Positions 2,076-11,451 of a stretch of DNA of 37,614 nucleotides are shown one piece after another; the first letter of the stretch is position 1; the number at the start of each line of letters is the position of its first letter. The DNA is from Fibrobacteria bacterium (GTDB lineage: Bacteria; Fibrobacterota; Fibrobacteria; UBA11236). A program made the translations under genes and the position numbers. The stretch is from NCBI GenBank assembly GCA_025360005.1, contig JANYDA010000038.1:1-37614 (forward strand). The letters are read 5' to 3'. The notes beneath the pieces are model-generated. The model worked only from the letters and a program-made list of their open reading frames with translations, did not search any database and was not told the DNA's origin.

Positions 2076-3122
2076 TCAAACGCCGGGGAATTTCGGGAAG
2101 ACGCCCAAGCCGGGCGAGGAACCCGGCGCGATCATGCCGTTGACCATGGCCAGACCCTGGAAAGGATCGTCCCGGAGCAACCAGCTCCCGTCCAAATCCG
2201 CATAGTCCGCCTCCTGGGCCACCACGGCTCCGGCCGCGATGAGCAGGCTGCTCTCCAACATGCAGCCGACCATGACCTTCAGTCCCAAACGCTTGCCTTC
2301 GCGCAGCATGGCCAGCGCCGGGGTGATGCCGCCGCATTTCACCAGCTTGATGTTGAATCCGCTGAAGCGGCCGCGCAGCCCGGCGATGTCGTCCGGCCCG
2401 GCGCAGCTCTCGTCCGCGAAAATCGGCAGGCGCGAGGCGCGCAGGATGGCCGGCATGCGATCATCCATAGCGGGAAGCAACGGCTGTTCGATGAATTCCA
2501 CCCCCAATGCTTGCAGGTGTTGGCTGATGGTCGCCAGAGCGCCATCGTCCAGCCCTCCCCAAGCCCCGTTGGCATCCACCCGCACGGCCGCCGGGGTTCG
2601 CGCGCGGATGGCCGCGATGAGTCCGGTATCCACGCCCGCGTCCAGCTTAACCTTCACCGCGGGGAAACCGCTCAGTTCCCGGATACGCTCGGGCCATTCC
2701 TCCCGCGGGCAAATCCCCAAGGTGGCCGAAGTGGGAATGGCTTTTGCCGCCCGGCCCCATGCGGCTTGCGCGGCGCTTTTCCCCGTGAGCTTACCATGCA
2801 GGTCCCACAGGGCCACGTCCACGGCGCATTGGGCGGCGCGCGAGGGACGCACGCGATCCCAGATCTCGTTCCAGATGCGTCCGATATCCTCCGCGCCCGT
2901 AAGCGTTTGCCGGCGGAAATAATCGTTCAGTCCCGCCAAGAGCATATCGACGTCGCGGAAGTCTTCCTTGAAGAAAGCGTTGGGTGAGGCTTCTCCGTAT
3001 CCTAACACCCCATTCTGTTCCACGACCAGGAACACATTATCCACCTGCCGCCGGCTGGCGCGTGAAATACGGAACACATGTTTGGGGTGCAGGGCCTTGC
3101 CGACGGAGTAGATGCGTATCAT
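2076..3122 (-). CDS. Dipeptide epimerase (L-Ala-D/L-Glu epimerase type), enolase superfamily
   Basis: The 348-residue protein belongs to the muconate-lactonizing-enzyme group of the enolase superfamily. The catalytic set is visible: K157-V-K159 (acid/base), D183 in VDANGAW, E212 in IEQP, D237-E238 in ADES (metal ligands), and K262 in KLVKCGG (opposite-face base). D309-L-D311 near the C-terminus is the DxD pair that in known dipeptide epimerases binds the substrate amino group, and PTSATLGI at 130-137 is also typical. The enzyme would epimerise L-Ala-D-Glu from cell-wall peptides to L-Ala-L-Glu in the cytoplasm. It is divergent from an MpaA-like amidase gene, as in the E. coli ycjG-mpaA neighbourhood, which supports this substrate. 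Other dipeptides remain possible. Confidence 0.88.
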   Translation of the reverse strand: MIRIYSVGKALHPKHVFRISRASRRQVDNVFLVVEQNGVLGYGEASPNAFFKEDFRDVDMLLAGLNDYFRRQTLTGAEDIGRIWNEIWDRVRPSRAAQCAVDVALWDLHGKLTGKSAAQAAWGRAAKAIPTSATLGICPREEWPERIRELSGFPAVKVKLDAGVDTGLIAAIRARTPAAVRVDANGAWGGLDDGALATISQHLQALGVEFIEQPLLPAMDDRMPAILRASRLPIFADESCAGPDDIAGLRGRFSGFNIKLVKCGGITPALAMLREGKRLGLKVMVGCMLESSLLIAAGAVVAQEADYADLDGSWLLRDDPFQGLAMVNGMIAPGSSPGLGVFPKFPGV

Positions 3123-3145
3123 GGTTGCAATCGATCGACGGGTTG

Positions 3146-3196
3146 AATATACATCGGAAATCCATCTCCGTGCTCGGCGCTTTTTTATGATATTAT
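3146..3196. promoter_or_regulatory. Divergent promoter region between epimerase and amidase genes
   Basis: The 98-base gap between the divergent genes contains a -10-like TATATT on the minus strand (3151-3146) and a -10-like TATTAT on the plus strand (3191-3196). No good -35 lies at the right spacing for either, so both are tentative. No operator palindrome was seen. Confidence 0.3.
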
Positions 3197-3220
3197 GATT
3201 CGGGAAGCCTGAAACAAGCC

Positions 3221-4054
3221 ATGCGAAACATCATAGGCAAATCCGTCCAAGGCCGGGATCTGGTCGTGCACGCCAACTTCCCGCTGGATGTTTCCCCTGC
3301 CGCCGTATCCCGGAACTCAACCCTTCTTATCGGAGGCACGCATGGGGACGAGCGGGCCACCGTGGCCATCCTGGATAATTTCCACGCGGATTGGATCGAT
3401 TCCGGAAAGCTCGCGGAGCCGGTGGCGATCCTGAGTCTGCACAATCCCGACGGTTATGCCGCGGATACCCGTTACAACGGCCGGGGCGTGGATCTGAACA
3501 GGAACTTCGGGCATCAATGGAGCCCGGACGCGGATGAACCCCCGGGACCGATGGCGCTTTCAGAACCGGAGAACCGGGCCTTGCATGCATTCATCCTGGC
3601 GCACCGCCCCGCCAAGATCATCAGCCTGCATTGGGCCCTCTCCGAGCTCGACGCGGACGGTCCGCAAAGCGCCGGCTTGGCGGCGCGCATGTGGCAATCC
3701 CTGACCGGGGAGGAACGCAGGCCTTACCGCCTGAGCGCGCCTAAGCCCGCGGCGTCGATCTGCGCGAATCCATCCTATTGCGCCGGATCGCTCGGCCAAT
3801 GGTGCGGCAACGGGCTCCTCTATCCGGACGGTAACCGCCCGGCCATGGTAACTTTGGAGCTACCGTATCATGCGCATGTCCATGATCGCCCGGAAACGCT
3901 GCCGGCGGACCATCTGGACAGCGTGCGGGAATTGTGGCGCGCCAGTCCGGAGACCTACCTGGAAGGCGTGCAAGGCCCCGTACATCGCATGCTGGCAGCC
4001 GCCATCGCGTGGCAACATCCCTGGCCCGTTCCCGGTTCAGGCTCCCAGGCATGA
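3221..4054 (+). CDS. M14-family zinc carboxypeptidase, MpaA-like murein peptide amidase
   Basis: The 277-residue protein has the M14 zinc peptidase signature: H41 and E44 in GGTHGDE, the NPDGY...GVDLNRNF substrate-binding segment (D91-L-N-R94-N-F), H137 in ISLHW as third zinc ligand, and catalytic E213 in VTLELPYH. It has no signal peptide, so it should act in the cytoplasm. Length and the DLNRNF segment resemble MpaA, which cleaves the D-Glu-diaminopimelate bond of recycled murein tripeptide. The neighbouring dipeptide epimerase would use the L-Ala-D-Glu product. A broader succinylglutamate-desuccinylase-like role cannot be excluded. The ATG lies in a weak ribosome-binding context; the end overlaps the next gene by 4 bases. 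Confidence 0.82.
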   Translation: MRNIIGKSVQGRDLVVHANFPLDVSPAAVSRNSTLLIGGTHGDERATVAILDNFHADWIDSGKLAEPVAILSLHNPDGYAADTRYNGRGVDLNRNFGHQWSPDADEPPGPMALSEPENRALHAFILAHRPAKIISLHWALSELDADGPQSAGLAARMWQSLTGEERRPYRLSAPKPAASICANPSYCAGSLGQWCGNGLLYPDGNRPAMVTLELPYHAHVHDRPETLPADHLDSVRELWRASPETYLEGVQGPVHRMLAAAIAWQHPWPVPGSGSQA

Positions 4055-5274
4055 GGGTCCTGGTCTGCCCTTTGGATTGGGGGCTGGGCCATGCCGCCCG
4101 TTGCGTTCCGCTCATCCGCGCGCTCCTGGCCAATGGCCATCGGGTCCGCATCGGGGCGGCGGGCGGCGGCCTGCGCCTGTTGCGGCAGGAGTTCCCGGAC
4201 CTGGAAGCATTCGTTTTCCCCGGCCATGCCGTACGCTATTCCCGCTCCCCCGCCTTCTTTCTGCCCGTGCTGCTATGGCAATTGCCGCGCCTGCTGGCCG
4301 GCATGCTGGCGGAGTCCCGCAGGGTAGGCGAGATACTGCGCGAGCATCCCTACGACCTCATCATTTCCGACGGCCGGTACGGCGTTTCCAGCCGTACCGT
4401 TCCCAGCATATTCATCACCCACCAAATCTTCATCCGCGTTCCGGGGCGCTTTCCCGGCATCGCCTGGGCCAACCGCCTGGTGTTGGCGGTTAACCTGCGC
4501 CTGTTGCGTCGGTTCTCCCGCGTGTGGGTACCTGATTTTCCGGGCGCGGACAATCTCTCGGGAGAGCTCAGCCACCAGGCTTGCCGGTTGGAGAATCTGG
4601 AATTCATCTATCCGCTGGCTAGGTTCGGCGCGGCTGCGACGATAACAAAAGCGCTGAGCGAAGCGGATTCCATGGCGGGGAAAAATGTGGATGTGCTCGC
4701 CGTGATCAGCGGCCCGGAGCCGCAACGCGGACTTTTCGAGATCGCCCTGCGGAGGGAATTGCGCGGCCTGCCGGGAACCCGTATCCTTGTGCGCGGCCAA
4801 CCTCCGGACCCGCATGCTCCGGTAAAGACGGCGGGAGCGGCGGAACCGGCCGCCATAGAAAAAGGAGCTTTGACCGAGTTCGCGCATTTGCCCGGCGGGG
4901 ATTTGGCCCGGCTCTTCTCGGCCTCCGGTTTGATCGTCATCCGTTCCGGCTATACTACTCTCATGGAACTGGCGGGACTGGGAACAGGCGCCGCCGTGCT
5001 GGTTCCTACTCCGGGCCAATCGGAGCAGGAATATCTGGCTGATCACATGGAACGATTGGGAGCGGGGATAAGAATGGATCAAGAGGCCCTGGATCTGGGC
5101 CGTGCGCGGGATCGGCTGACGAACTTGGCAGGTTTCTCCCGCTGGCGGAACGGCTGGCGCGATGCGGCGGGAAAGCCTTTTTCCCTGGAAGCGTTCCTGG
5201 CGGTCCATCCGCTTTTCAACCGATCCCGATCTCCGTCCGCGATATTGGACGTGCGGAAGACGCGCCAACAATAG
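4051..5274 (+). CDS. Glycosyltransferase of the GT-B (MurG/GT28-like) fold
   Basis: The open frame extends upstream, but the ATG at 4051 overlaps the amidase stop as ATGA and begins a clean GT-B N-terminus, giving 407 residues. MRVLVCPLDWGLGHAARCVPL at the start is the glycine-rich loop of 'predicted glycosyltransferase' families. A C-terminal half with VIRSGYTTLMELAGLG (from about residue 297) is the nucleotide-sugar-binding region shared with MurG and other GT28 proteins. No membrane segment is evident. Donor and acceptor are unknown. Overlap with the amidase suggests co-translation and a possible envelope role, but this is inference. No polysaccharide cluster surrounds it. Confidence 0.72.
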   Translation: MRVLVCPLDWGLGHAARCVPLIRALLANGHRVRIGAAGGGLRLLRQEFPDLEAFVFPGHAVRYSRSPAFFLPVLLWQLPRLLAGMLAESRRVGEILREHPYDLIISDGRYGVSSRTVPSIFITHQIFIRVPGRFPGIAWANRLVLAVNLRLLRRFSRVWVPDFPGADNLSGELSHQACRLENLEFIYPLARFGAAATITKALSEADSMAGKNVDVLAVISGPEPQRGLFEIALRRELRGLPGTRILVRGQPPDPHAPVKTAGAAEPAAIEKGALTEFAHLPGGDLARLFSASGLIVIRSGYTTLMELAGLGTGAAVLVPTPGQSEQEYLADHMERLGAGIRMDQEALDLGRARDRLTNLAGFSRWRNGWRDAAGKPFSLEAFLAVHPLFNRSRSPSAILDVRKTRQQ

Positions 5275-5294
5275 TAGATTGTCCTTAGGGTTGC

Positions 5295-7151
5295 ATGAAT
5301 TTCCTCCGAATCCATACTCCATCTTTACTATCCCCCGCGACCTTGCCTTCCATCCGTTCCCGGCGTTTTTTCCCGGCGCGGTTGGCGTTCCCGCTGGCGG
5401 CCTCATTCGCCTTGGCGTTGGGCCTGGCGCAAGCGAAGCCGGATGCGAAACCATCCAAGTCCGGTTCCAAAACGGGTCCCGCGGCCGCCAAGGTTTCCCT
5501 GGAAACGGATATGGGTGGCAAGACCGAAGAACGCTTGCGCTTCTATCAGGAGCGGCTGAAGAAATACCTGCGCGTCCTGCAAAAGTCCGATTCCATCCCC
5601 CCGTATTTCCTGGCCTATCGCATCAACGACACTTTATACCACAGCTTCATCGCCAATAGCGGCGGAGTCGTCGAGGACAAGAGCGGCGTCTCCCGCTACT
5701 TGGGCGTGGAAGCCAGGGTGGGTTCTCCCAAGTTCGACAATACCCATCCCATGCGCGAAAACCTGGACTTCACCTCCTGGGATGGCTACCAGAATATCCG
5801 CCTGCCGTATGAGCCGGAAGGGAAGCCGGCGGAGCAAGCTTTGAAGGTGGCTACGGATTTCGCCTTCCGTTCGGCCAAGGACCAATTCATCAAGATCAAA
5901 GCGAACGTGGACGTGCGCCCGGCCGAGAACGACACCGGGTTGGATTTCGCCGCCGCGCCGCCGGTGCGTTTCCGCGATCCGCCTTTCGCCCCGCAGCCTG
6001 GCCGCAAGGCTCTGGACAGTCTCTACGCCGTTATCCGCAAGGCTTCCCTGCTCTTCGCCAACCGTCCGCATCTCTTTTCCAGCCAAATCGATTTCAATTA
6101 CCGCAAGGTCAAGAAGCTATTCCTGAATTCGGACGGCACCGTACTTTCCCATACGGAAACGCTCGGCAACATCGGCATCTACGTGGAGACCAAGGCCGAA
6201 GACGGCATGATCCTCTGGCTGACCAAGGATTTCTTCTTCAAGGATGCGCCGCTGGAATTCCCCTACGACTCGCTCTCCCAGGCCACGGAACTCCTGTTGC
6301 GCCGATTGGATACCCTGCGGACCGCCCCGGTGATGGAAACCTATGTGGGGCCGGTCATCCTGCAGAACATCGCCGCGGCCGTCTTCACGCACGAGGTGTT
6401 CGGCCATCGCGTGGAAGGCCATCGGCAAAAGGCCGTGGACGAAGGCCAGACCTTCGTCACCAAGATCAACCAGAGCCTGGCGGCGCCGTTCATTTCCATT
6501 TCCGACGATCCAACCCGGGAGTACGCCGTGGGCGTGCCCTTGAACGGGTACTACCGTTACGATGATGAGGGCGTGCCCGCGCGCAATACCCCGCTGATGG
6601 TCGACGGCATATTCCGGGATTTCCTTTTCAGCCGGTCCGTCATTTCACCCCAAGGCGCCTCCAACGGGCATGGCCGCGGCGTCCTGGGCCTGGCGCCCAC
6701 CGCGCGCATGGGCAACACCATCCTGCAAGCCTCGCGCACCGTGCCTGCGGCGTCCCTGCGCGACAGCCTGCGCGCGATCCTGAAAAAGACCGGCAAACCG
6801 TACGGCCTCCTCTTGCACGACATCTCCGGAGGCTTCACCTACACCGGCCGCGATCTGCCGCAATCCTTTCGCGTGGAACCGTTGTATGTCTCCCTGATCT
6901 TCGCGGACGGCAGGCCGGACAAGGTGGTGCGCGGCGTGGACGCGGTTGGAACGCCGCTGGTAAGCCTGCGCCAGGTGGCTTTGGCCGGGGATGATCCGGC
7001 CGTATTCAACGGATATTGCGGCGCGGAATCCGGTTGGATCCCCGTTTCCGCGGTCGCGCCGTCCCTGCTGCTGGAGTCGATGGAGTTCGAAAGCCGGGCC
7101 AAGGATCAGAATATGCCGCCCATCCTGCCGCCCCCGGAAGTGAAGCGATGA
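5295..7151 (+). CDS. Exported TldD-like metallopeptidase
   Basis: The 618-residue protein belongs to the TldD/PmbA superfamily. It carries the metal motif H366-E367-V-F-G-H371 and, near the C-terminus, C575 in the YCGAESG segment that aligns with the zinc-ligand cysteine of E. coli TldD. Unlike cytoplasmic TldD, it starts with a signal sequence: R21-S-R-R-F-F (twin-arginine-like), a hydrophobic stretch to about residue 44, and an A-Q-A47 cleavage site before a lysine-rich linker. Mature length (about 570) exceeds E. coli TldD (481), mainly in the N-terminal half. The stop overlaps the partner gene start (ATGA). Known TldD/TldE process microcin B17 and CcdA; an exported pair would act on envelope or secreted peptides. 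The substrate is unknown. Confidence 0.85.
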   Translation: MNFLRIHTPSLLSPATLPSIRSRRFFPARLAFPLAASFALALGLAQAKPDAKPSKSGSKTGPAAAKVSLETDMGGKTEERLRFYQERLKKYLRVLQKSDSIPPYFLAYRINDTLYHSFIANSGGVVEDKSGVSRYLGVEARVGSPKFDNTHPMRENLDFTSWDGYQNIRLPYEPEGKPAEQALKVATDFAFRSAKDQFIKIKANVDVRPAENDTGLDFAAAPPVRFRDPPFAPQPGRKALDSLYAVIRKASLLFANRPHLFSSQIDFNYRKVKKLFLNSDGTVLSHTETLGNIGIYVETKAEDGMILWLTKDFFFKDAPLEFPYDSLSQATELLLRRLDTLRTAPVMETYVGPVILQNIAAAVFTHEVFGHRVEGHRQKAVDEGQTFVTKINQSLAAPFISISDDPTREYAVGVPLNGYYRYDDEGVPARNTPLMVDGIFRDFLFSRSVISPQGASNGHGRGVLGLAPTARMGNTILQASRTVPAASLRDSLRAILKKTGKPYGLLLHDISGGFTYTGRDLPQSFRVEPLYVSLIFADGRPDKVVRGVDAVGTPLVSLRQVALAGDDPAVFNGYCGAESGWIPVSAVAPSLLLESMEFESRAKDQNMPPILPPPEVKR

Positions 7152-8932
7152 TCCGCCCGTCCTCCGTATCGCTGCTGGCATTGGGCCTGGCCTGGGCGGG
7201 CCTAGCGGGATCCGTTTTCGCCAAAGGAAAAACCCAAGCGGCCCCGCCCGGCACCCATGCCACCGGCGCGGCCTCGCTGGATAAATCCGATTCCAGCTTG
7301 GCCAGATTGGATGCCTCCGCCACTTTGAAGGCCATGGGCCATGAGCTCAAGCGATCCATGGACGGCTTGCGCATCAAGGGCCGGCCGCGTCCTTATTTCC
7401 TTTCCTACCTGCTGTGGGACGTGGAATCCCATCATATGCAAGCCTCGCTTGGATCCTGCGAGATGTCCGAAGGGGACCGCCAGCATATGGCGGAAGTGGA
7501 TTTGCGAGTAGGGAATTACGACGAAGACAATACCAACTTCCAGGGGGGCATCGTTTTCGGGCCGCGCCTGCGCCTGCCTTTGCCGCAGGAAAACGATACC
7601 AATCTGCTGCGCCTGTCGCTGTGGGCCGCCACGGACGCCAAGTACAAGGTGGCCGTGGAGATGCTGGCGCAAAAGCACGCGTTCCTGGCCAACCATAGCG
7701 GTCGCGACAGCCTGCCGGATTTCTCCAGGCAAAAAGTCCTGACTCGTTACCGCGTGGAACCGCGGACGCCGCCGGATACGGCCAAGACGGCCAGGCTGGG
7801 GAGGGAACTCAGCGGTTACCTGGGGGGATTCCCTTGGCTGTTGGAATCCCGCGTCGGCTACCAATACTATTACACTACTTTCCATTACGTGGATTCGGAA
7901 GGCGCCCGCTTCATCGAAACCGTCAAGGAGCATACCCTTACGGTGGCCTTGTTCACCCAGGCAAAGGATGGCTCGCCGCTTTGGGATTACCTGCGCATCG
8001 CCACCCGGGATCCGTTGGCGGTGGGCGAGGGCTCCGTCAGCTTCGCCGCCCTCAAGGATTCCCTGGCGCCCATCCTCAAGCGCATGGATTACCTCCGTTC
8101 CGCCCCGCCCTTGGCCAATTACCGGGGACCCGTGCTGTTCACCGGGACCTCCGCGGGCGAGTTGCTCAATAAGGCGCTGTTGACTCCGCAGGCGCGCCTG
8201 CGTGAGCCGGCCGGGACAGGCGCCGAACCCAATTTCATGGCCAGCCTGGCCGGCCGCAAGCTGTTCCCAAACGAAGTCAGCGTCCTCGATACGCCCTCCA
8301 TGGAAGCCTGGGAGGGGAGAGCGTTGTTCGGACACTACATCCTGGACCAACAGGGCCAACCTGCCCGGGACATTGTGCTGGTCAAAGATGGCCGGGTCGA
8401 GGAATTTTACCAAGGCAAGGTTCCCACCCTTAGGGCCAAGGGACATTTGAGCAATGGCCATTGGCGCTATGGCGGCGGCTTCCCGGGAGTGGCGGTATTG
8501 CGTTCGTCCAAACCGCTTTCGGATGCGGAGCTGCGCTCCAAGCTGGGCGCGATGGGCGCCGATGAAGGCACCGGCTACGGCCTGATCGTTTCCAAGGTGG
8601 TGGATGAGGATGCCTTCAAGCTGTTGCGCCATCCCCTGGCGGCCCACTTGGCCGTGACAGACGCCCTGGACGGCCATGGATCCTTCTCCCTCACGCCCCC
8701 TTGCGAAGTGGACATGTACGATTCCCGTACCGGCAAGGTTACCCCGGTGCGCGGTCTTTCCTTCCCGGCCCTGGACACGAAATCCCTGCGCGATATCGCC
8801 GCCATCGGCGATCGCCCTTACCTGCATGAGCCGCAGGCCGCCTATTCGGTGCTATGCCCCTCACTGCTGTTCAGCCTGTTGGATCTGAAGGGCGGCCGCA
8901 ATACCCAGCCGCGCCTGCCTTATCTGCCCTGA
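7148..8932 (+). CDS. Exported TldE/PmbA-like partner subunit without the metal motif
   Basis: The ATG at 7148 overlaps the upstream stop (ATGA), giving 594 residues; a longer in-frame start at 7016 would lie deep inside the previous gene. The N-terminus is a signal peptide (hydrophobic residues 8-23, SVFA then K). The fold regions parallel the preceding gene: YFLSYLLWDVE matches YFLAYRIND, and ANYRGPVLFTGTSAGELLNKAL matches the partner's GPVIL...THEVFGH segment, but HExxxH is absent and the late cysteine motif is not conserved. This mirrors the TldD (catalytic) and TldE (metal-free) heterodimer. The tandem, overlapping arrangement supports a two-subunit exported complex. Gene symbol withheld because it differs strongly from PmbA. 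Confidence 0.75.
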   Translation: MIRPSSVSLLALGLAWAGLAGSVFAKGKTQAAPPGTHATGAASLDKSDSSLARLDASATLKAMGHELKRSMDGLRIKGRPRPYFLSYLLWDVESHHMQASLGSCEMSEGDRQHMAEVDLRVGNYDEDNTNFQGGIVFGPRLRLPLPQENDTNLLRLSLWAATDAKYKVAVEMLAQKHAFLANHSGRDSLPDFSRQKVLTRYRVEPRTPPDTAKTARLGRELSGYLGGFPWLLESRVGYQYYYTTFHYVDSEGARFIETVKEHTLTVALFTQAKDGSPLWDYLRIATRDPLAVGEGSVSFAALKDSLAPILKRMDYLRSAPPLANYRGPVLFTGTSAGELLNKALLTPQARLREPAGTGAEPNFMASLAGRKLFPNEVSVLDTPSMEAWEGRALFGHYILDQQGQPARDIVLVKDGRVEEFYQGKVPTLRAKGHLSNGHWRYGGGFPGVAVLRSSKPLSDAELRSKLGAMGADEGTGYGLIVSKVVDEDAFKLLRHPLAAHLAVTDALDGHGSFSLTPPCEVDMYDSRTGKVTPVRGLSFPALDTKSLRDIAAIGDRPYLHEPQAAYSVLCPSLLFSLLDLKGGRNTQPRLPYLP

Positions 8933-8991: not shown

Positions 8992-11451
8992 CTACTCCTG
9001 GGCGGCACCAGGAAAGCGGGTCCATCCGGCCAGTTCCGGACTGATGGCCCAAAGACCCGGTTCCGTCAAGGTGGCCAAGTGGTCCGCTTCCGTTTTCATC
9101 CAGGCCAAAACCTCCGGGCTCTCCGCGTGGGCCCAGTTCCTGCCCGCCAGGGAAAGCAAGGCCGGGTCTCCCACGGAAGGATATTCTTCCACCTCCGCGT
9201 TGCGGAGGGGCCCCAACCGCGCCAGCTTGGCGGCCTCGGCCAAGGCGTCCTGCAATCCGCCGAGCCCGTCCACCAGCCCGTTCCCCAGCGCTTGGGTGCC
9301 CGTGAAGATGCGACCCTGGCCCAGGCTGTCGATGGCGGCCTTGCTCCGCTTGCGGCCCGCGGCCACCTTGCCGATGAAGTCGTCATAGAATTGATCCATA
9401 TGGTTTTGCAGCACTTCCACTTCGGATGAATCCCAGGTCCGGGCCATGGTGTTGCCGTCCGCGTGGGGAGACGTCCTTACCGTTTCCGTACTCAATCCCA
9501 GTTTTTCATAGAGGCCTTTCAAAACGAACTTGCCCCACAGCACGCCGATGCTGCCGACCACGGAATTGGGCGCGGCGATGATCCTGTCGGCGCCGCAAAT
9601 CAGGTAATAGCCTCCGGAGGCGGCATCATGCCCCACCGAGGCCACCACCGGTTTGCCGGCTTTTTTCAGCAGTTCCACTTCCCGCCACATGATATCGGCG
9701 GCCTGGGCAGAACCGCCCGGCGAATCCACCCGCAGCACCACGGCCTTCACGGACGGGTCCAGCCGGGCCCGGCGCAATTGCCCGGCCACGGTTTCCGAAC
9801 CCGCCAAATCCGGCCCTGCCAGCCAGGCGCGGGCGCTGTTGCCCAGCACCATGTCCCCGGACACCGTCACCAGCGCGATCCTCGGTTGAACGGCCCACGT
9901 CACCCGTGCGTTACGGGTGGGTCCCCAAGGGATCAACGCGGCATGCTTGCCGCCCGCCAATTGCAAGGCTTGGTCCTGATAGATGAGGGTGTCGATGAGA
10001 TTCGCCTTAAGGGCATGGGAAAGATTGATTTCCCCGGATTCCAGCGAGGCCCGCATCATCTCCTTGGGCATGCGGCGCCCCTGCGATACCGCATCCAGAT
10101 AATGGTCCCAGAGCGCGTCCAGATACGCTTCCAGATCGGCGCGCATGGGTGGTGACATTTCCTTGCGCGTATACGGCTCTTCAAAGGACTTGAATTTGCC
10201 GTGCCGCAGGAATTGCGGCTCGATCCCCAGCTTGTCGAAGAAACCGCGGTAGAACATCACCTCGGCGGCGAAACCGTTCACGGCGAAATAACCTTGGGGC
10301 TGCATGGCCACCACGTCCGCGGCGGAGGCCAGGAAATAATTCAACGGCGTCACCTGCTCCAGGTAAGCCGTCACGCGGATGCCCCGTTCGCGCAACCGCA
10401 GCAGCCGATCGCGGATTTCCTCGCCCATGGCCCAACCGCAACGGGCGCCTCCCAGCTTGATCAGCACGGCCTTGATATGGGGGTCCGCCTCGATAACGTC
10501 GATGCGCCTCAGCAGATCCGGGAAGCCCAACTCTCCGGCGGAACCTGTCCAACCATCGGGCGCTTGCCCTTCCACGATGCTATGGTTCAAATCCAGCTCC
10601 GCCACGTTTCCTTCCGGGAAAAGGAAGGGGGTCTTCTGCGCGCTCCGGAACTGCAGGGCAGCCTGGCTTTGCCTTCCGCCCGGAAGTCCCGCGGCCAATC
10701 GCGGTCCCATTCCGTTCACGCCCTGCGCCGCGCCCCTGCCGGATCCCAACGCTCCCGCCCAGCGTCCCGTGCCTTGCAATACCAGGCCCAGTGAACCTTC
10801 CCGATGCTTCAGATCCAGTTGGCCCTCGACTCGGAACCCCAATCCCAGGGGCACTTGGCCGAAGAGGTAACTGCGGCGTTTCCCTTGCTCCTCCTTGACC
10901 GCGGCGAGCCCGAAGTTGAAGTCCGAGAGTATGCCGGAAGCGGCGCCCCAGGGCCGCACCGCGGCCGAAACATGATGGATTTTCCGCTCGGTATCGCCGG
11001 TCCAAAGGTTCTCGCCCCAATACCCGGCCATGATTTGGGGGAGCGGGCGGAAGTCCATTCCCGCGTCCAAGACGGGGTGATCGGCATCGGCACCGTCCCA
11101 GACATATGCAGGCCGGATACCCGCCGAGAAGCACCTTAGGAAGTTCCCGCCGATAGCCAAATCGAAGCGCGCCCGGTAAGGCCCGTTTCCCTCGTAATAG
11201 CGGAAACTTTCGGCCTGGCCCGAACCCTGGGTTTCCAAAGACCACAGGCGTAGCGAGCCCGGACCGGAAGCGCTCCACTCCGCCCAACCCAGATCGACCC
11301 GCTCCTCGGAACCGAAGGCGGCCGCGGCAGGGTTCCCAAAGGCGGCCTGGCCGGTGGCTGTAGCTAAGCCATTTGAGAAAGGTAAAGTCGGTTCCCAAGC
11401 CGGGACCAAAGCGGGCAACAGTAGGAAAAGGGGATTAAAACTGGATTTCAT
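8992..11451 (-). CDS. sppA: SppA-type S49 protease fused to an N-terminal beta-barrel-like domain
   Basis: The 819-residue protein has a tandem S49 protease like 67-kDa SppA, which degrades leftover signal peptides. The catalytic lysine is K421 in HGKFKSFEEPYTRKEMS and the nucleophile is S612 in DAASGGYYL, 191 residues apart (200 in E. coli SppA). Residues 1-18 form a signal peptide (basic, hydrophobic, PAW). Residues about 25-285 are not SppA: they have NPAAAAFGSEE, then many alternating aromatic/polar strands (FRYYEGNGPYRARFDLAIGG and similar) as in outer-membrane barrels of the PorV/FadL sort. The usual N-terminal transmembrane anchor is missing. The fusion suggests outer-membrane or periplasmic placement. 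The protease call is firm; the barrel call is a pattern judgement. Confidence 0.87.
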   Translation of the reverse strand: MKSSFNPLFLLLPALVPAWEPTLPFSNGLATATGQAAFGNPAAAAFGSEERVDLGWAEWSASGPGSLRLWSLETQGSGQAESFRYYEGNGPYRARFDLAIGGNFLRCFSAGIRPAYVWDGADADHPVLDAGMDFRPLPQIMAGYWGENLWTGDTERKIHHVSAAVRPWGAASGILSDFNFGLAAVKEEQGKRRSYLFGQVPLGLGFRVEGQLDLKHREGSLGLVLQGTGRWAGALGSGRGAAQGVNGMGPRLAAGLPGGRQSQAALQFRSAQKTPFLFPEGNVAELDLNHSIVEGQAPDGWTGSAGELGFPDLLRRIDVIEADPHIKAVLIKLGGARCGWAMGEEIRDRLLRLRERGIRVTAYLEQVTPLNYFLASAADVVAMQPQGYFAVNGFAAEVMFYRGFFDKLGIEPQFLRHGKFKSFEEPYTRKEMSPPMRADLEAYLDALWDHYLDAVSQGRRMPKEMMRASLESGEINLSHALKANLIDTLIYQDQALQLAGGKHAALIPWGPTRNARVTWAVQPRIALVTVSGDMVLGNSARAWLAGPDLAGSETVAGQLRRARLDPSVKAVVLRVDSPGGSAQAADIMWREVELLKKAGKPVVASVGHDAASGGYYLICGADRIIAAPNSVVGSIGVLWGKFVLKGLYEKLGLSTETVRTSPHADGNTMARTWDSSEVEVLQNHMDQFYDDFIGKVAAGRKRSKAAIDSLGQGRIFTGTQALGNGLVDGLGGLQDALAEAAKLARLGPLRNAEVEEYPSVGDPALLSLAGRNWAHAESPEVLAWMKTEADHLATLTEPGLWAISPELAGWTRFPGAAQE

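Follow-up and report, generated by a model that had tools for sequence, protein, structure and literature searches.

A TldD/TldE-type protease pair with conserved predicted export signals in a Fibrobacterota genome: a candidate envelope peptidase of separate ancestry

Is a TldD/TldE-type pair in which both subunits start with signal-like sequences truly exported and, if so, what would it do in the cell envelope, and where did it come from? The question is raised by two adjoining genes in a stretch of 37,614 nucleotides (the window) from a Fibrobacterota metagenome-assembled genome (MAG) from soil. TldD/TldE proteases are widespread, and their general function has been described as elusive (PMC5810440). 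Here, we refer to the catalytic TldD-like subunit as A and to its metal-free partner as B, both of the exported lineage described below (Table 1). The reading that we favor, at a probability of roughly 0.7, is that A and B form an envelope peptidase of the TldD/TldE fold that would hold zinc or iron and act as a Sec-exported heterodimer trimming unfolded peptides.

Table 1. Positions in the window of the A/B pair, its sequence features and its neighbors
Feature	Position	Strand	Remarks
L-Ala-D/L-Glu epimerase (DgcA/YcjG-like), divergent from M14 gene	2076..3122	-	
M14 carboxypeptidase, weakly MpaA-like, no visible signal peptide	3221..4054	+	
MurG/MJ1255-like glycosyltransferase, upstream; ATGA-type overlap with M14 gene	4052..5274	+	adjoins pair in 8/8 carrier genomes of family
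Conserved upstream element CAACAATAGTAGATT, tentative promoter -10 region of pair	5266..5280	+	overlaps upstream gene's stop codon
Catalytic TldD-like subunit A, exported lineage	5295..7151	+	618 aa; PF19289 3e-27
Predicted signal peptide of A, ~residues 1-47, SRRFF at 22-26	5295..5435	+	heuristic score, orthologue comparison
HEVFGH metal motif (366-371) of A	6390..6407	+	H366, E367, H371 invariant in 57 sequences
Cys575 of A, predicted third metal ligand	7017..7019	+	invariant in 57 sequences; aligned to E. coli C454
ATGA stop/start overlap of A and B	7148..7151	+	4-nt overlap found again in most pairs
TldE-like partner B without metal motif, exported lineage	7148..8932	+	594 aa; PF19289 1.7e-7
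Predicted Sec signal peptide of B, ~residues 1-25	7148..7222	+	heuristic score
SppA-type S49 protease, convergent neighbor	8992..11451	-	extra N-terminal ~300 aa

The pair belongs, as a variant, to the known TldD/TldE family. Both open reading frames and their ATGA overlap lie where the first-pass annotation had placed them, and the translations confirm its statement that A carries HEVFGH and the distal Cys; B, which it called metal-free, has no HExxxH in its sequence. In Pfam, both proteins match the C-terminal domain PF19289 (PmbA_TldD_3rd) above the curated cut-off of 22 bits, with 95.7 bits for A and 31.1 bits for B; the central domain PF19290 scores 14.8 bits, under its cut-off of 20.9, and the N-terminal domain PF01523 has no match by sequence in the pair. 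A is also under the cut-offs of the canonical TldD equivalogs of NCBIfam (38 of 513 bits for NF008006 and 64 of 635 bits for NF040952). AlphaFold models of the single chains, for which 57 A and 24 B sequences were aligned as input, have high confidence (pLDDT 87.5 for A and 84.5 for B) except for the N-terminal tails, which in A comprise a low-confidence segment of residues 1-58. In Foldseek searches, the only significant matches of these models are TldD, TldE and PmbA structures (1.6e-30 for A and 2e-22 for B). As modeled, A and B share the TldD/TldE fold over the whole chain; because the fold is present, the unrecognized PF01523 and PF19290 domains reflect divergence and not absence. Since the N-terminal halves of A and B fall outside the cut-offs of these two families, substrate handling may differ from that in Escherichia coli.

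E. coli TldD/TldE (PmbA; PDB 5NJ5 and 5NJF; PMC5810440) has the same fold over ∼450 residues, the model of A superimposing on TldD chain 5njf_C with a Z-score of 31.8 and an rmsd of 3.7 over 449 residues, and it likewise has HExxxH and a distal Cys in one subunit and a metal-free second subunit. H366, E367 and H371 of A align with H262, E263 and H267 of E. coli TldD, which together with C454 make up the metal site of that enzyme (PMC5810440), and C575 is the sole Cys of A. All four residues, H366, E367, H371 and C575, are invariant in 57 relatives. Unlike E. coli TldD/TldE, the pair in the window has export signals, is ∼100 residues longer, is only 17% identical in the structural alignment, and represents a separate lineage with an inactive partner that seems to have been derived independently.

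Comparison of N-termini lends good support to the export of both subunits. First, both start with signal-like sequences: up to the estimated cleavage sites, which were placed by eye, the N-terminus of A is MNFLRIHTPSLLSPATLPSIRSRRFFPARLAFPLAASFALALGLAQA, followed by KP, and that of B is MIRPSSVSLLALGLAWAGLAGSVFA, followed by KG; orthologues of A keep the start codon at 5295 (ATG). Second, such sequences are a feature of the family. Using a home-made scorer, which requires a start without net negative charge, a hydrophobic stretch and then small residues or a lipobox, and which takes the best start codon per sequence, we obtained passes for 76/79 relatives of A and 29/30 relatives of B vs. 0/17 canonical TldD controls. 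Shuffled-composition N-termini pass at rates of 30% with the loose and 14% with the strict threshold; together with the choice of the best start, these rates make single calls of the scorer weak but not the family-wide pattern. Third, the N-termini compared come from Fibrobacterota, Bacteroidota, Myxococcota, Planctomycetes, Melainabacteria and the phylum of an “uncultured proteobacterium” record (L047), and the signals are kept in both subunits over several phyla, in support of the export of both subunits that the first-pass annotation had suggested. Lipoboxes occur in ∼9 relatives of A, e.g., VAMVGCAAAPT, and most of these share a GCAATPT-like sequence. It is very unlikely, in our view, that the N-termini are instead membrane anchors or mis-annotated starts of a cytoplasmic enzyme. 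Some of the h-regions are modest and the starts were chosen computationally, as this explanation would have it; however, almost all relatives have signals on A as well as on B, ending in cleavage-like sequences or lipoboxes, and canonical TldD has no such signals.

Judging from these N-termini, Sec would be the likelier and simpler export route. The first-pass annotation had proposed that A carries a twin-arginine signal, which would imply that A is exported folded via Tat and B via Sec. The SRRFF string is indeed present, S22-R23-R24-F25-F26 fitting most of the S-R-R-x-F-L-K consensus; moreover, TatC is encoded in the genome, and orthologues keep the start codon that yields the long n-region. 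However, RR is missing from the closest orthologue (87% identity) and from most of the nearest ones (72-87% identity), the five nearest having SRSFRS, GPRLPA, FRRHFT, PKRLAI and TRKFFI in the corresponding stretch. RRx[FLIVM] is found in 5/76 relatives of A vs. an expectation of 3.5 after shuffling of the n-regions, the signals of several relatives are of the lipoprotein type or short and plain, and it would be unusual for the two subunits of a complex to leave by separate routes. Orthologue comparison and shuffling lead us to reject Tat as a conserved feature of the family; what remains of the twin-arginine claim is the string itself, with a motif that is not conserved and Tat export that is unsupported, and we consider a Tat route for A of the window improbable.

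Returning to a Sec-exported envelope peptidase, we infer the heterodimer, the metal, the peptidase activity and the Sec route, and the mechanism is transferred from E. coli TldD/E, a hollow dimer inside which unfolded peptides are bound irrespective of their sequence (PMC5810440). With an N-terminal signal of its own, each subunit would leave the cytoplasm, Sec being the most likely route, and become periplasmic or, in some relatives, lipid-anchored. Outside the cytoplasm, A and B would assemble into a hollow dimer in which the metal is held in A only, by H366, H371 and C575, with E367 as the general base, while B closes the shell. The cavity would admit unfolded peptides or protein tails, which would be trimmed with no marked preference for sequence, as by E. 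coli TldD/E. Sequence-independent trimming in a cavity suggests that the likely job of the pair is to clear or trim envelope peptides; which substrates these would be is a guess. Several TldD/E family members work in the maturation of peptide natural products (PMC5810440, PMC10885120), which could argue for a dedicated exported peptide that the pair would mature or degrade, much as cytoplasmic TldD/E does with microcin B17. Against this, no gene for a RiPP precursor or its modification was recognized among the scanned neighbors, and the wide, neighbor-independent distribution of the lineage suits a housekeeping role, making a dedicated peptide a highly improbable substrate.

The neighboring genes raise a further possibility. 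The epimerase and the MpaA-like M14 carboxypeptidase (2076-4054) are likely a cytoplasmic muropeptide-recycling module, and the pair might feed it, with trimmed muropeptides passing to the MpaA-like amidase and the L-Ala-D/L-Glu epimerase. In each of the two genera of the family, the epimerase and glycosyltransferase genes have stayed beside the pair; the M14 gene has done so nearly always, and it overlaps that for the glycosyltransferase. However, this neighborhood is kept neither in other phyla, no obvious shared neighbor being found in Bacteroidota, Planctomycetes, Myxococcota and others, nor in G054 (L059); TldD/E is known to act on ordinary unfolded peptides and not on those with D-amino acids; and a promoter of its own may serve the pair. 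That promoter would lie at CAACAATAGTAGATT, which is nearly identical across the genus of the window and is matched in position by TTATAATTT in the sister genus; a scan with sigma-70 patterns found no consensus site at 5266..5280. We therefore regard a part for the pair in cell-wall peptide recycling as unlikely. The SppA-type protease, which the first-pass annotation had pointed out as a neighbor, is indeed adjacent, but it is encoded on the opposite strand and its adjacency is conserved only in the genus of the window, being missing from the neighborhood of the pair in the sister genus; on these grounds, we rejected it as a functional partner. As a separate observation, the extra N-terminal ∼300 residues of this protease begin with a signal-peptide-like sequence of their own, match no Pfam family and, by eye, resemble an outer-membrane beta-barrel; the protein is conserved over its length in L037 and L038.

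A canonical TldD/TldE pair is encoded in the same genome as A and B, on a different contig (G000 C14). The two pairs belong to the same superfamily, and in each a catalytic and an inactive subunit adjoin; however, the canonical TldD has no signal, its pair matches PF01523 and PF19289 strongly, and it is distant in the tree. In an IQ-TREE phylogeny of 67 sequences, A and B fall together, opposite canonical TldD and TldE, with a branch support of 100/100, and B does not group with cytoplasmic TldE. A joint duplication of the cytoplasmic pair, with A next to TldD and B next to TldE, is 135 log units worse (p-AU 6.6e-6) and was rejected. Because A and B group apart from TldD and TldE, the metal-free partner seems, on this phylogeny, to have arisen twice independently, which is to us the most interesting point of the locus. 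Long branches between the two halves of the tree, about which the program gave a warning, make this result strong but not final. Two sequences from the Myxococcota survey (L163 and L164) form a divergent TldD-like branch with HEVCGH, which is long and separate from both other canonical TldD and the exported lineage.

The A and B genes are consistently paired where both are present: in 26/26 loci checked, A precedes B on the same strand, mostly with a 4-nt overlap, which makes a heterodimer of the two proteins plausible. B is not universal, since 14 of 17 genomes examined, including the sampled myxobacteria, contain A without any exported-lineage B; these 17 genomes were selected for an A without a neighboring partner, and the fraction is no frequency. 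The many genomes with a solo A indicate that A does not always require B; on its own, it may form a homodimer. The archaeal TldD of Sulfolobus provides a precedent of a kind: as relayed in PMC5810440, Hu et al. 2012 reported a homodimer that is active without TldE, i.e., the TldE-independent activity that a solo exported A would need; PMC5810440 disputes the report, and Sulfolobus TldD is not known to belong to the exported lineage. From the tree and the solo-A genomes, we arrive at a scenario to which we give even odds, in which exported TldD is a separate, widespread lineage of envelope proteases whose first form was a self-sufficient homodimer and in which a duplication of its own later gave rise to an inactive partner, independently repeating what happened in cytoplasmic TldD/TldE. 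On the role of the inactive subunit, the reports on E. coli and Sulfolobus are at odds, and genomes with solo A vs. those with A and B offer a natural comparison for addressing it.

In searches with a profile of A, exported A mostly scores >450 bits and canonical TldD up to ∼110 bits. At the set threshold, matches were found in 6/99 genomes of Bacteroidota, 39/77 of the phylum of a Myxococcaceae record, 39/78 of the phylum of L047 and 11/151 of Fibrobacterota, where only a few families have them and the sampled genus g4 has none; because genomes were sampled evenly, these figures are rough frequencies. Myxococcus xanthus MXAN_2519, annotated as “Peptidase U62”, has been listed as enriched in outer-membrane vesicles and as common to the membrane fraction (PMC4158809). 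It is a TldD-family (U62) protein from a phylum in which about half of the sampled genomes have an exported A, and a candidate member of the exported lineage. In the open-access literature, with most subscription journals and bioRxiv outside this scope, we did not find exported TldD described as a class. If the exported branch is real, the peptide-trimming chamber of this family would also serve the envelope, beside a cytoplasmic pair in the same genome. One Melainabacteria MAG (L043, genome G065) encodes three exported TldD/TldE-type pairs, on C587, C139 and C321.
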